In this document: piece by piece, positions 4,769-21,890 of the stretch
Position numbering within the stretch: position 1 is the stretch's first letter
Layout of the letters: each line of letters starts with the position of its first letter
DNA from: Adineta ricciae
Taxonomy: Eukaryota > Rotifera > Eurotatoria > Adinetida > Adinetidae
NCBI GenBank assembly: GCA_905250025.1
Contig: CAJNOJ010000035.1
Span: 124,001-188,000, forward strand
DNA: 64,000 nucleotides
Direction of reading: 5' to 3'
Position numbers and translations under genes: made by a program
Notes under the pieces: generated by a model
The model's input: only the letters and a program-made list of their open reading frames with translations
The model's database searches: none
Told to the model about the DNA's origin: nothing

Positions 4769-4854
4769 ACAGAACGGTCGATTTTTTTTGTTGTGTTTTT
4801 ATTGGCAATTGAGAATAAAAAAAAACAGTTTTATTTAAAAAAATAAGCAAAAAG

Positions 4855-4927
4855 TGGAGAAGTTGGGCATCGATCCCAATACCTCTCGCATGCTAAGCGA
4901 GCGCTCTACCATATGAGCTACATCCCC
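4855..4927 (-). tRNA. tRNA-Ala (anticodon AGC)
   Basis: The minus strand folds as a 73-nt cloverleaf: acceptor GGGGATG paired with CTTCTCC, D-arm GCTC/GAGC, anticodon stem CTCGC/GCGAG with loop TTAGCAT (anticodon AGC), and T-arm TTGGG/CCCAA with loop ATCGATG. The G3:U70 wobble, the main identity element for alanyl-tRNA synthetase, is present, and the discriminator base is A. No intron is seen and CCA is not encoded, as expected for a nuclear tRNA. Position 6:67 is a T:T mismatch. A T-rich run lies just downstream on the minus strand (4833-4854), suitable as a Pol III terminator. Confidence 0.95.
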
Positions 4928-5570
4928 ATGTCGGAGACATGCTTCCAACCGTGTACGATCGTTGTCATCAATTGATTCAATTTGTAAAGCGAAACTTCCA
5001 CCACATACAATACTGTTCTCAATCGATTCACGTTTACTTAGAAATCCTCCTCTTTATTCTCGATTCACGCACAATTGCTTGAGAAAAACATTGTGTAGAT
5101 AAATGCCTCCGAATATTGAGCAGGCGTATTTTTTCCTCGTCACTATTGAAATATGAATAAGAGAGATAAATTGCCGAGAACAACGTGTTATAAGCACATT
5201 GAATATCAATCGAACAGGAATAACAAGAAAACACGGATTTTTATTGCTTGACCTTACATGTATTTCGTTAATGTGGACATTGGCATTCACGTTTGGGGGA
5301 CAGGATAACAAACTCATCTGTCATATAATGAATAACAGTGTTGTTTATAGTCAATTATCAATTTTTTTTTCTATAGTTCTCGCTCTCCCTGTCTCTCTTG
5401 AATCTATTTAGAGAACGAACGGAGTATTTAAAATCACCGATTTATACGAGCCGACTTCCGTAATTTGCAGTTTCTACTTTTTTTTGTTTCTTCTATTTCA
5501 AAATAAAATCTCTCGTCGACTCAATTCCATTCTTCATTTCATCAATTGGTACCCGAATAATACGTTGAAC
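4928..5570. other. intergenic between tRNA-Ala and the GPGW precursor
   Basis: No convincing coding sequence. Short open stretches on both strands lack family signatures. The right part should contain the promoter of the peptide gene starting at 5571. Confidence 0.4.
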
Positions 5571-5892
5571 ATGAAGGTGTGCTTCTTCTTCGCCATAACT
5601 CTACTCATCTGCCAATACTTCATCAGTCAAATTACAGTTGATGCACGTCCAGCAATCGTAAAGAAATTCTCTTGGTCTTTTCCAATTCATGATGAACAGC
5701 AAGATGAAACGTACCAGGAACTAGTCAAACGAAAAGGTCCTGGTAAGTGTAGTTCTACTCTTCCTTTTCTTTGAATATCTCCATTATGATTTTACTCTTG
5801 TAGGCTGGGGAAAACGTAGTGATGTGATACTAGAAGACCATCCTAATGCTGCACATGAAAATTCTGCTCGTTTATGGTTCGAAGATAAATGA
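5571..5892 (+). CDS. secreted neuropeptide precursor with a KGPGW-amide type peptide
   Basis: This is an 86-residue preprohormone in two exons (5571-5742 and 5804-5892; 61 bp intron, 261 coding nt). Residues 1-25 are a hydrophobic signal sequence (MKVCFFFAITLLICQYF). A spacer with KK and KR sites follows. Then comes KR-KGPGW-GKR: dibasic cleavage would free KGPGW, with the glycine supplying a C-terminal amide (KGPGW-NH2, or GPGW-NH2 if the lysine is trimmed). The tail ends ARLWFEDK. The intron falls inside the GPG motif. PGW-amide endings are known from molluscan APGWamide and from arthropod AKH/RPCH peptides, but the single copy in the middle of the precursor does not match either layout. 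The precursor architecture is seen directly; hormone function is inferred. Confidence 0.75.
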
Positions 5893-5933
5893 ACGCTATG
5901 TTTTTTTCATGTTCATTTATAGATAAAAAACAA

Positions 5934-5939
5934 AATAAA
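5934..5939 (+). promoter_or_regulatory. polyadenylation signal of the GPGW precursor gene
   Basis: AATAAA about 40 bp after the stop codon of the peptide gene. Confidence 0.55.
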
Positions 5940-6105
5940 TACATATTTATTTTACAACAACACCAACAGAAAAAAAAAACAAACATGAATACTTCAAAAC
6001 TGAATGTTGATTCAAATCGATTTATTCTTTTTTCGACAGAAATCTATATTTGGATGTGAACGAACACTAAGAATATCGTTTTGTTATTTATTGATTTCGA
6101 GATCG

Positions 6106-6537
6106 TCATAAGCTATTCAGAAATCGTCGTCGACGGCGGCGTCGTCGGAATAAATCCTTTTGTTCGTAAAGATACGGTGGAATAGAGCGTGCAGTCCTTC
6201 GTTCATGAGATATAAGTCGAGGGCTTGAATAGAACTTATCCGCAATAGAATTCCCCACAGATGACAAATCGTTAGTTGATCCTAACGGCGACTGATAATC
6301 GTTACACAGTAACAGCCAAGCCGTTTTGTCTGTATAAGTAATCATGTATGAATATGGGATTGAACAATCGATCTTTTTATCATCGGAAGACCGGTCTTCT
6401 TCGATACTTCGTTTTCCAGGATTGGGATAATTCATCAGCGCTGATGGGTAATCTTTTTTCATAATGTACCATTGACCAGCTATACCGTGTGAACTAAGCA
6501 TAACACCAAGTAAGAACAAAGGAATAACGTTATTCAT
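6106..6537 (-). CDS. secreted neuropeptide-like precursor with an amidated Q...NP peptide
   Basis: This is a single-exon 143-residue protein. Residues 1-21 form a signal peptide (MNNVIPLFLLGVMLSSHGIAG). Directly after the likely cleavage site is a 21-residue peptide starting QWYIMKKDYPSAL and ending NYPNP, followed by GKR. This predicts N-terminal pyroglutamate and C-terminal proline-amide. The rest has an acidic spacer with KK, two cysteines 21 residues apart, an RR site, and a run of eight arginines before FLNSL at the C-terminus. Signal, Q-peptide, GKR and a two-cysteine tail resembles the layout of GnRH/corazonin or luqin-type precursors, but the peptide matches no family I recognise. The ATG at 6537 was chosen over one six codons upstream because it starts the signal core. 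The gene is tail-to-tail with the GPGW precursor. Confidence 0.65.
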   Translation of the reverse strand: MNNVIPLFLLGVMLSSHGIAGQWYIMKKDYPSALMNYPNPGKRSIEEDRSSDDKKIDCSIPYSYMITYTDKTAWLLLCNDYQSPLGSTNDLSSVGNSIADKFYSSPRLISHERRTARSIPPYLYEQKDLFRRRRRRRRFLNSL

Positions 6538-7148
6538 TTTGTTGTGATAGAGCAAAATTTTGATCTGAAATAAAAAGTATTTGTTGGGCTGCAGTAGTCA
6601 ACGATTCATAGGGGTTTAAATAGTGAATGTCGAAGAAGGCGGCATTTTTTTTGCAAATGGGACGCCTTGTAATAACAGAAAAAGTATGACTGTAAAGAAC
6701 AGTCTGGATTAATCAAAATGAAGGAAACTCGTTTTTCCGACAAGATATCTTACTCACCCTTCTCAGAGAAACAAACAATGGTTAGTGGTAGTTATGAAAA
6801 ACGATGACTAAAAGACCAATATTAGTTTCCTTTCTCGTTTTTTTTTCTATATTCAATAGCGTGATAAGGAATTTCTTGATGACAATATGAACAAATGATT
6901 CATTCGAACTCATTAGTTGCTGAAAGAGAAAGTACAAAACTCGCCTGTTAACGATATTCATCAATAAATGTAGGGTTTTACACAAAATCTCCTCCTACAC
7001 ATTGTTAAGATTATTGTTTCGACTACAGCTGACTATAATGCATGTTCTACTTACGATTGAATGATTTCGATCAAAGGAGATGTTAACTGAAATTGAGAAT
7101 CTGTGCCTATTTTGCTAGTTTATATACTCTAGGATCAAAGAAAGGGAG

Positions 7149-7165
7149 GGAGAGAGAGAGAGAGA
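7149..7165. repeat. GA microsatellite
   Basis: Uninterrupted GA dinucleotides in a purine-rich stretch; a shorter GA run lies at 7256-7266. Confidence 0.8.
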
Positions 7166-8616
7166 AAGCGAAAGAAAAAGAATAATGGATTGCTCAATGT
7201 CCTGAAACAGTCGAAGAGGTACTTTGACCGACAACCCCCTCATACACAAAAAGCGAGAGAGAGAGAATTCGATGCATAATAGATGAGCACAGATAGAACA
7301 AAGCTTTTGTATTCATTGTTATTTCAATAACGCCTCGTTCCTAATAAAATCATTAACCGTGTTAATCTGCCTTGGCTTCTCTCCCGATCATTAACATCAT
7401 CATCGTTTCCTATTGCGTTTTTCTTTCTCGGGAAAAATTCATTTGCTCACGAATCTCAAAGCCATCGATCATTTCCAAGAAAAACCAATAACGATAAGAC
7501 GTATTTTAATAAATAAAGAAAAACAAAGAAAGTTTATCGAATTTGCTCGATTAGTTACACATGAGAAATCTCCGCGTAGGATGAGACAGTGAGTGTTCGT
7601 GAGGGCGGATATCTTCTCTCCATTCATCAACCCTCGATCATGATCCGACCAAGTTTTGTTTATATTTCGCTCGTGATCCATGAAATTTAGCTAATAATAC
7701 TTGTGATTATACTTCAGTCTGTCTCTTCAAACCTTGACGTCGCAACTGCATACATGATAAACACTTCACATAGCATTCAATTGTCCTTGTTAACAAAACA
7801 TCATTTGAATAACTAATTAGTCCTGTTCGAAGAGTGGAGGTAGATGAAGCAATATATTATCCTTGGTGCTCGTCTATCTCATATATATACACATGATTAT
7901 TCAGTTAAACGAACAAGCCGACTCTGCATATTCGATATAATCGAAATTGATTATTAAATAGTAAAAATGGTTTTTTTATGACAAATATTTCTATACTCTT
8001 GTTCGGCATCGATCTACAATCAAAGCATCAAGCTTGTTCGTTGCACGCAAAAAGATCAATTCTCCATCTTATATTTTCGTATGATTCATTCCCCTTTAAG
8101 ATACATATTTATTATTCATGTATATATTTTCTCTCAATCAAAACATCTGCCTGAAGGATATTATAATCATGCCAATTTTAATAGAGAGAAGTATGTTTTT
8201 CTTGGCGCTAGAAATCTTCTCCACCTGGTCTTGCTTTTTCGAGTATTAGAAACTGTGTGAGCGTTATTTATTGATGTCAAATGGTTACGAATGGGATGAA
8301 ACATCCATTTTTAACTTGTAATTCTCTGACCTAATGACAGCGTTGAACACTGTCAAAGCCATGGAAGAGAATAGAAGAAAATTCTGCACCTTTTTTTTCT
8401 TTCTTCTCTTTTTTTTTCTTTTGAAGCCATTCTTGTTAACTTCTTTTCTTTTTTTTCATTACTGCCACAGCCGACAGATTGTTCATTCTTTGCTTTTCCT
8501 CATGACTAAATGATTTGAAAATGAACTCCTAAGTAACAGAAACGAGCAGCAAAACACAAAACACCTAGGAATGAAATACCGAACTGCAAAGCTGCCTGTT
8601 CGCCGCATTTCTTTCC

Positions 8617-9226: not shown

Positions 9227-11351
<2,125 letters not shown>

Positions 11352-14978: not shown

Positions 14979-16605
14979 ATGAGTATTCGACGTAAGAGTA
15001 CACTTTCCCCTGCTTCACGTCCATCGGCAATTTCGATTTATTCAGCAACATTAGATTTGAACGATGAATATACTAATGATGGATTCTCTCGATACTGCCC
15101 CCTCTTCCGTATTCATAAAGCGGATGTCTATCACGTTCTCGAGAGACAAGAAGGCAGACGTACACTCATCTATCACTTATTTGTTTTTGCTTTAACATTA
15201 ATCTCCCTGGTTTTTGGTTCAATCTCAACCATTGTCGAATGGCGAACAAAATTAAACACACCCTTGTACTATGGTGAACTGATTCTTTGCATATTCTTCA
15301 CCTACGAGCTTGTATTACGCATATGGGCAGCAGGTTGTCTTGCTATGTATAGAACATGGGTAGGTCGTTTGGTATTTGTCACTCAACCGGTAATTGTGCT
15401 CGATATATTGACACTTTGTGGTTTCGGATACTTGTTGGCCACTGGTTTAACGACAGGTGAATTTTCTCGCTTTGCATTAGATTACTTGCCGCCACTACAG
15501 ATGATTCGCTTCTTACGTGTTGATCGTCAATTGACGTCGTGGCGAATTCTAAAGGAAATCTGTTTAAAACATCGTCAAGAACTAACGGTTACCATTGTTA
15601 TTGGTTTCATGTTTCTAATCATCGGTGCCTATCTTGTTTTTATCTCTGAAAAGCCAATGGATGCCAGTTCATACACAGGACAATATAAGTCCATGGCCGA
15701 TTCCATGTGGTTCTCAATCATAACAGTTAAGATTCTTCTGAAAGAGAATCGAATTGATGATTTGTTCGTTTTAGATGACAACCATTGGATTCGGTGATAT
15801 CTATCCTACAACGTTCATTGCTAAAATGATAACAACAACAATTTGCTATCTCGGTGTTGCGTTTTGGTGTCTACCAGCGGGCATAATTGGCAGTGTACGT
15901 GCTCGATTGTACTTGTCTTCTATTGATTATCGTTTCTTTTTGAATATAAAGGGTTTGGCGATCAAAGTTCAGGAGCAAAAGCGTGATGAAGCATTGAACC
16001 GCCTCGTACCAGCCGCTGCAAGTCTTATACGGAATTGGTGGCGATTTCGATGTTCTCAACAAGGTGATCGTTTCGTTGCCACATGGAAAATCTACACATT
16101 AATGCAGCGACGTGTCAATGAACTCATATCACCAAGCTCCGCGCCACCATTCCATCGATACACATCTAGTCAAACACGCGAAAAGAACCCGTTCCGAAGT
16201 AATCCACTAACAACACCGAATTCAAGTCAAATTCGTCGAAAATCAATCACCTCGATCGAAGATCTACCAAAACGTTATGTAACAGCAATAAAAATCCTTC
16301 GATTGCTCAAGTATTCTTCCTCACGTAAGAAGTTTCAACAAGCCAAACAGCCCATTGACTTGAAAGAAGTGGTCACTGAAAACACTCAAATGAATAATCG
16401 TCTATCAATCATGCTCAACGATATTCACCGACGTCTTGACTTGACATTAGGCACTACTAAGCCCGCTTCATATCTCCCCGACGAACAAAAACGTCAATTA
16501 AGTTTAAGTGCACGAATTGAAACCATCGAACAACTAACTAACAGATTCGAATCAAAATTAGATTATTTAGAACAACTAGCGTTAACTTTGAAAGTAAATC
16601 AGTGA
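14979..16605 (+). CDS. KCNQ (Kv7)-like voltage-gated potassium channel subunit
   Basis: Exons 14979-15725, 15775-15894 and 15952-16605 give 506 residues. S1-S3 are recognisable, with ELVLRIWAAGC and WVGRLVFVTQPVIVLDIL closely resembling KCNQ. S6 reads WCLPAGIIGS-GLAIKVQEQKRD, the family hallmark, followed by a calmodulin-binding helix A (AAASLIRNWWRF) and a C-terminal coiled coil for tetramerisation (LSARIETIEQLTNRFESKLDYLEQ). Two features are odd. The selectivity filter is TTIGFGD rather than TTIGYGD. In S4 (LDYLPPLQMIRFLRVDRQ) the first two arginines of KCNQ1 align with D and P. Both introns lie in the pore/S6 region. Length is somewhat shorter than vertebrate KCNQ (about 650-870), mainly in the C-terminal linker. 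Potassium permeation is likely; voltage sensitivity is doubtful. Confidence 0.9.
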
Positions 16606-20431: not shown

Positions 20432-21890
20432 TTAAATATCAGTTTGTTTCATGTCAGGCAATTGGTTAACTTCATCACTGAACGACACACGTGCTTTTTC
20501 TCCAGATCCCGTGATGTTCGTCTTCAAATCGTGATTATTTTGAGGTGTCAGTGTTGTCATCGGTATGTCATTGCTTGCAGATTTTATTATCACAGAGGAT
20601 GCATGGATTGTAGTTTCGGCATTAACCGTTTTATATTCGATATTGTTAGTAACTACAACGCATTGTTTGCCAAGTAAGGGTGCTGCAATCGATTGTAAAC
20701 GTTCCTGTCGGCTATTGAATAATGATGCACAGAGTAATCGAGTAAAAGCATCACGAAATGCTCGTGACATACGACAATAGATAAAGAAGTTTATAGGGTA
20801 TGAAAGTAGAACAGCAAAATTCAGCAGTTGTACAGCAAAGTGAAGGAAGTTTTGCAGAAATGATGATTGAAACAATCTCAAAATAGCTGTAACTATGATA
20901 TAGATAGCCATAGGAATTTCCACAATTAAAAACAATGTTACGACAATGATCTAAAATAAATCATCAACAGTGATGGATGTATACTTTTTCAGTTATATCT
21001 ACGTACAAGCATGAATGTAACATTGGTTTGTTCTTGTGCTCGTGATTCATAGCTACGTCTTCGGATGAGTTTATCTCGATTTTGTTTCGCTTCTCTCATA
21101 CGCTCGACAAGTATAGCGTTGAATATAACAAGGATGGTACAAGGACCAACGTTGATTAATAATGCACGAATAAGTGAGTAGATAGAAAATAATGTTCGAT
21201 ATCGTTCATCTTCGGAATAGTCGCGCACACTGCACGCATTGAAAACTTTCTTCGGATCTAACAATGAACGAACTGGCACAGCATGAAATGTGCCCTCAAT
21301 AAACATCGGAATTGCTACAATTAATGCTAAAATATTGACACATGCAATTGCTTTTAGCGCCATAGGTACTGTACACCATTGTTTGGCCTTCTCTGAATGA
21401 CATACATAGATATATCGTTGAATGGCTAATACAACTGTCACCTAGAATAAATAGATCAAATAAACAAATTACGACGAGAACATCTTACCCAAATCGAACA
21501 CGTATGAAAAATAAATGGAAGCACATCGTGATTTATTCGATGGAACCATCCGTAATTGAATGGGATATAATCATTACATTGTCGAAATGTGAAAACGAAG
21601 ATATAAGCTGGAAACGGAAAAAGTCCTGTCAATGTATCATAAAGTGCAATTGCGAGAAGAAGAATATTCGTTGGTGAACGAAGATGTTTTTGTAATAAAA
21701 CAACAGCAATCAACGAATTCAAAACAGTCGATATAATAATAATCAACGGTGCACATACACCTTGAAGAATGACATAGTATGGCGGAGGACATTGACCAGG
21801 ATAGAATGGATACCAATGTAAATCATCTGGAAGTGTGATGACACCGTGCGTGTCCGTGGTTGATACTGTTTGATTGACTGAAAGTACCAT
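20432..21890 (-). CDS. peptide GPCR, sex-peptide/myoinhibitory-peptide receptor type
   Basis: This is a rhodopsin-class receptor of 451 residues in three exons (21890-21489, 21441-21007, 20950-20432; introns 47 and 56 bp). The N-terminus has an N-glycosylation site (NQT). TM1-TM3 follow: LIIIISTVLNSLIAVVLL, NILLLAIALYDTLTGLFPFP, then IWVTVVLAIQRYIYVCHSEKA, where QRYIYVC takes the place of DRY. TM5 region is RALLINVGPCTILVIFNAIL, TM6 IVVTLFLIVEIPMAIYIIV, and TM7 LLNFAVLLSYPINFFIYCRMSRAFRDAF. The QRYIYVCH, VGPC and LSYPINFFIYC motifs are characteristic of the insect sex peptide receptor and related protostome receptors that bind W(X)6W-amide or FMRFamide-like peptides. The cytoplasmic tail is about 110 residues with many S/T. 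ATG 21890 is the first in frame; an upstream exon is possible. Confidence 0.85.

Follow-up and report, generated by a model that had tools for sequence, protein, structure and literature searches.

A small gene of the bdelloid rotifer Adineta ricciae raises two questions: whether it encodes a neuropeptide, and whether that peptide belongs to a known family ending in an amidated Gly-Trp (GW). The gene lies in a stretch of 64,000 nucleotides (nt) of contig CAJNOJ010000035.1 (assembly GCA_905250025.1, positions 124,001 to 188,000, forward strand), called the window below. The initial annotation had read it as the precursor of a KGPGW- or GPGW-amide. Judged from its sequence, the gene very likely encodes the precursor of a neuropeptide or peptide hormone, within a bdelloid family in which each precursor has one short GW-amide. 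This family of single-copy short peptides is real and conserved and has probably not been described before, and KGPGW-amide is only the A. ricciae version of its peptide.

Gene Structure and Coding Evidence

The GW-amide precursor gene occupied positions 5571-5892 of the window on the plus strand, with two exons encoding 86 amino acids (aa) (Table 1). The core of the precursor reads ELVKR-KGPGW-GKR-SDV, and residues 1-25, read by eye, comprise Lys at position 2, a hydrophobic core and V-D-A ahead of Arg-Pro. In the protein search, an unnamed deposited product of A. ricciae (P0001) was the same 86-aa protein, and the deposited orthologues of A. vaga and A. steineri were 80% and 79% identical to it, respectively; thus, the gene is not a chance reading frame. 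Moreover, among the 35 rows of the family alignment that show the peptide start, the exon junction was already spliced in 13, and the other 22 continued there into other letters. These results bore out the initial view of a spliced gene with a 61-nt intron inside the peptide. They also supported the idea of a secreted-looking precursor with a single short peptide and a predicted amidation. Each of the 13 spliced members contained one GWG.

The assembly contained a second, near-identical copy of the gene on C24. Across the 3.2 kb aligned, C24 and the window's own contig (C35) were 94.9% identical, and the two copies are probably alleles. Their coding sequences showed two differences in 261 sites, a synonymous one and an Ile-to-Val change. 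The coding sequences were closer than the surroundings, with 41 of 1067 aligned sites differing (Fisher p = 0.0098), in a comparison whose surroundings were of our own choosing (4770-5570, the intron and 5893-6105, with a tRNA gene inside them) and omitted the neighbouring gene (14 of 432 sites differing) and 6538-7264 (55 of 722).

Family Members and Search Scope

The family was collected stepwise: the first protein search gave 9 proteins, a profile of five sequences gave 22, and a profile of 22 sequences gave 40. The search requires shared 5-residue words and similar length, and therefore distant members, including those of monogonont rotifers, could be missed. Only eight of the 40 proteins carried a species name, and every one was bdelloid (A. 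ricciae, A. vaga, A. steineri, Rotaria sp. Silwood1, Rotaria sp. Silwood2 and Rotaria socialis); the other 32 were without a species name, and there was no named match outside the bdelloids. The named members (P0001, P0002, P0003, P0010, P0011, P0013, P0025 and P0029) were deposited as unnamed or hypothetical proteins of Adineta and Rotaria, which states neither function nor family. A Pfam scan of 22 aligned members gave weak, scattered matches to six families (best 0.0043, in one member), and the profile gave four matches against the PDB (best of the NDUFB10 type, E 0.12); both were taken as noise.

The 40 rows were sorted by a script into 18 with a group A peptide, 17 with a group B peptide and 5 with exon 2 only. 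The window gene belongs to group A. Its A. ricciae paralogue on C18 is of the group B type, encodes QAGW-GKR, and has a 54-nt phase-1 intron in the same place. Adineta and Rotaria proteins were present in both groups; therefore, the duplication predates the split of the two genera. In the open-licence PubMed Central literature, GPGW-, KGPGW-, GVGW-, KGVGW-, GIGW- and QAGW-amide were not found under the spellings tried, and searches there on rotifer neuropeptides and GW-amides, mostly at the level of search listings, turned up no paper on a bdelloid GW-amide family.

Conservation and Variation of the Peptide

The group A peptide had the layout KR-K-(GxGW or similar)-GKR. The residue preceding Gly-Trp was V in 6, A in 4, P in 3, I in 3 and L in 2 of the 18 rows, and the exceptions to GxG were LGPG or LGAG in three rows and PGAG in one. 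The group B peptide was QAG in 17/17 rows, with Trp following where visible. In group A, VKR preceded the peptide in every one of the 18 rows. In group B, the Q came after a dibasic pair in 16 of 17 rows and after RTR in the remaining one, P0017. GWGKR was found in 24/24 rows with exon 2 in frame. The basic sites and the amidation Gly were thus conserved, as is general for neuropeptide precursors, and together they offer the best evidence that the precursor may be processed into a short amidated peptide. In addition, W(F/L)(D/E) occurred within the last 12 residues in 22 of the 24 rows, the exceptions being P0025 and P0040, the latter with a frame that runs on.

The peptide was KGVGW in A. vaga, A. 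steineri and Rotaria sp. Silwood2, which suggests that the proline of A. ricciae is probably the derived state. As this proline is not conserved, GPGW probably came to resemble APGWamide and RPCH secondarily, by a late coincidence. GPGW-amide, first taken as the defining peptide, did not hold for the family, with Pro confined to the three group A rows and QAG(W) throughout group B, and the variable residue before GW removed the weight that had been placed on the PGW ending. A lack of conservation of GPGWGKR in close relatives had initially been named as grounds for rejection, and this was borne out in part: GWGKR was conserved, but GPGWGKR as such was not.

Proposed Processing and Mode of Action

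The gene would be expressed in neurons, and its precursor would enter the secretory pathway. A prohormone convertase would cleave it at KRK and again at the KR that follows the amidation Gly; once the basic residues had been trimmed off, PAM-type enzymes would convert the exposed Gly into an amide. The product predicted for A. ricciae is GPGW-NH2 (or KGPGW-NH2). For A. vaga, A. steineri and a Rotaria it is GVGW-NH2, and the paralogue would yield pQAGW-NH2. In the family alignment, the Q of QAGW aligned with the first G of GVGW, which suggests that a cut at KRK may leave a tetrapeptide. Matches above cut-off were found in the genome for PF01082 (copper-monooxygenase domain of PAM-type enzymes, best E 1.9e-41) and PF01483 (P domain of proprotein convertases, best E 3.8e-17). 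The peptide may act on a G-protein-coupled receptor (GPCR), for which the protostome W/F-amide type is the likeliest. According to a passage of PMC8557429, this group includes the receptors for RGWamide, MIP and proctolin, and its sister group is the deuterostome GPR139/142.

Comparison with APGWamide and RGWamide

The gene might be the rotifer orthologue of mollusc APGWamide and annelid RGWamide, with a single copy left, the Cys pair lost and an RGWamide-type receptor kept. Like APGWamide of molluscs and RGWamide of annelids, nemerteans and brachiopods, it has a secreted-looking precursor, basic sites and a very short GW-amide, the amidation being predicted here from the GWGKR rows. The amidated Gly-Trp core is common to these very short peptides, as stated in parts of PMC3503879 and PMC8557429. 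The hallmarks of their precursors are given in a section of PMC8557429 as many copies, two C-terminal Cys and a phase-0 intron between the two Cys. The bdelloid gene was different in all of these. Most APGW/RGWamide precursors have multiple copies, whereas one copy per protein was found in 13/13 spliced members. GWGKR was followed by no Cys in 23 of 24 rows; the remaining row, P0040, had 5 Cys in a frame running far past the gene. Furthermore, both A. ricciae paralogues had a phase-1 intron inside the peptide, where it splits the Gly codon ahead of Trp.

The genome was also searched with DNA patterns. GPGWGKR as one pattern had no match, because the intron breaks the motif. GW-G-K-R/S gave 11 matches compared with 9 for the control, and three of them were the window gene, the C24 copy and the C18 paralogue. 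The other eight, which were rejected, were five short frames, one MORN-like frame and two crotonase-like frames (named by eye). GW-G-R/S-R/S gave 19 matches compared with 16 for the control, with no multi-copy frame and none that looked precursor-like to the eye. By these two patterns, the gene is the only candidate for an APGW/RGWamide orthologue in the genome. However, both patterns were exact and restricted to single exons, and another precursor is possible since KK/RK sites and intron-split motifs fall outside them. The lack of a named family member beyond the bdelloids also speaks against orthology, which we regard as doubtful. The gene appears to resemble a short GW-amide neuropeptide in its working, but this likeness does not establish it as a member of the APGW/RGWamide family.

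Other Explanations

Several points weigh against the reading as a short amidated neuropeptide. The domains PF01082 and PF01483 are not exclusive to PAM and neuroendocrine convertases. The Trp was only inferred in 16 of the 35 rows with the peptide start, in which the frame enters the intron. Pfam gave no match for the three A. ricciae proteins tested, and hence no independent family label for a neuropeptide. In addition, the FSW..P segment was conserved as well as the peptide in group A, and the active product could be a non-amidated one. F(S/T)W..P was kept in the spacer of 18/18 group A rows, so a second product is possible (Table 1), and the amidated peptide varied at one or two positions in the same group. 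If the spacer peptide FSWxxPIH... were the main active product, the GW-amide would be a by-product; but the spacer motif was not kept in group B, whereas GW-GKR was kept in both groups, which makes this explanation unlikely.

A secreted peptide without a signalling role, for instance an antimicrobial or structural one, would accord with a short, secreted-looking precursor that carries no family label. However, the amidation and basic sites were the best conserved, a product of 4-5 residues is small for antimicrobial or structural roles, and we consider this highly improbable.

A place in the AKH/RPCH/GnRH superfamily was also considered. RPCH ends in PGW-amide, as the A. ricciae peptide is predicted to do, and amidated Trp is the ending of some AKH/RPCH peptides. 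A Brachionus plicatilis precursor with APGWamide copies and AKH has been claimed in PMC10730642. In contrast, 29 residues separate the inferred cleavage site of the bdelloid precursor from the Lys of the tribasic site, so the peptide sits mid-precursor and not directly after the signal peptide; it has 4-5 residues and is no 8-10-mer, and PGW is not conserved. A passage of PMC5024129 describes the oyster AKH preprohormone as a signal peptide followed by AKH and by a C-terminal portion that bears a cystine bridge, and the window gene had no such portion and no Cys after the peptide. Li et al. (PMC5024129) moreover report that neither AKH nor its receptor was found in rotifers, and membership of this superfamily is scarcely credible.

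MIP/allatostatin-B (Wamide) peptides share the C-terminal Trp-amide. They have two Trp spaced 6-7 residues apart, according to a passage of PMC3890597, whereas the bdelloid peptide of 4-5 residues has a single Trp, and W-x6-7-W-amide did not occur in the window precursor. The MIP system is described as absent from rotifers in a part of PMC7270403. The initial suggestion that the gene has neither the multi-copy APGWamide layout nor that of RPCH/AKH agrees with these comparisons. The proposed independent or strongly divergent family was supported.

Duplicated Block and Neighbouring Genes

In a translated comparison, the window was collinear with 39.6 kb of C18. The order of the block was adaptor-like gene, GW peptide gene, YPNP peptide gene, TPR gene and potassium-channel gene. 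The A/B duplication is consistent with the doubling of the bdelloid genome mentioned in a passage of PMC5818035. The adaptor-like gene was delta-COP by eye, and its Pfam match to Adap_comp_sub was slightly below cut-off. It adjoined the GW gene in the window, unlike on C18, where the 3' end of another gene lay immediately upstream of the QAGW gene and the adaptor-like gene was about 7 kb further out. A tRNA gene was located upstream of the peptide gene in the window.

The tail-to-tail neighbour of the GW gene, which also adjoined the GW genes on C24 and C18, had QWYIMKKDYPSALMNYPNP-GKR behind a signal-like segment and before two Cys. Pfam gave no match for its window copy. The C18 paralogue of this neighbour was 37% identical and retained YPNPGKR and CSIPY...WLLLC.

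Table 1. Positions of the precursor gene, its parts and other features in the window.
Feature	Position	Strand	Remarks
tRNA-Ala	4854-4927	-	anticodon AGC
Exon 1	5571-5742	+	ATG at 5571; putative signal peptide, FSWSFPIH-containing spacer, KR, K-G-P, first base of Gly; identical to P0001
Putative signal peptide	5571-5645	+	residues 1-25; cleavage inferred after V-D-A; judged by eye from sequence
Possible second product	5667-5726	+	FSWSFPIHDEQQDETYQELV; bounded by KK and KR; without amidation
Processing core KR-K-GPGW-G-KR	5727-5817	+	interrupted by the intron
Intron	5743-5803	+	61 nt, GT-AG (GTAAGT...TTGTAG), phase 1, within the Gly codon preceding Trp
Exon 2	5804-5892	+	remainder of Gly, Trp, amidation Gly, KR, C-terminal peptide SDVILEDHPNAAHENSARLWFEDK, stop
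AATAAA, poly(A)-signal-like	5934-5939	+	read from sequence; putative
Second peptide-like precursor (tail-to-tail neighbour)	6109-6537	-	143 aa; ...GQWYIMKKDYPSALMNYPNPGKR..., followed by a pair of Cys separated by 19 residues
TPR gene	9227-11351		kinesin-light-chain-like by eye; part of collinear duplicated block
Potassium-channel-like gene	14979-16605		collinear duplicated block; weak KCNQ match below cut-off
Class A GPCR, candidate W/F-amide-type receptor	20433-21890	-	three exons; 14.5 kb from GW gene; PF10324 E 5.5e-27, PF00001 E 2.2e-20

Candidate Receptor

The best Pfam match of the GPCR in the window was Srw, followed by 7tm_1. A collinear copy was found at C18:411436-412998, and the following best genome matches were 23-28% identical. 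Among solved structures, the best match was somatostatin receptor 3 (E 3.7e-13), and GPR139 was lower (2.9e-8). The best solved relatives were somatostatin and substance P receptors and not GPR139, and therefore the class given to this GPCR is tentative; we presume a resemblance to sex-peptide/MIP receptors. As 130 Mb of the genome held at least 75 Srw-like stretches, the chance of an Srw-like gene within 16 kb on either side was roughly 2%, being higher for all GPCRs, and the proximity was noticed post hoc. The GW-amide gene and this GPCR might form a ligand-receptor pair linked in both copies of the ancient duplicated block, the copies having diverged in parallel into GVGW/GPGW-amide and pQAGW-amide systems that took the place of MIP signalling, which is said to be absent from rotifers. 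We consider such a pairing very unlikely.

Significance

A passage of PMC8557429 mentions an earlier study, including three Rotaria species, in which very few precursors were found, and describes an in-depth survey of gnathiferan neuropeptides as the next frontier in comparisons of peptide systems among spiralians. The PGW-amide ending alone is no proof of kinship with APGWamide or RPCH. The present gene leads to a small, testable peptide family with members across several deposited bdelloid genomes. Moreover, the family provides a paralogue pair with diverged peptides, in which GxGW is variable and QAGW is fixed among the rows seen.
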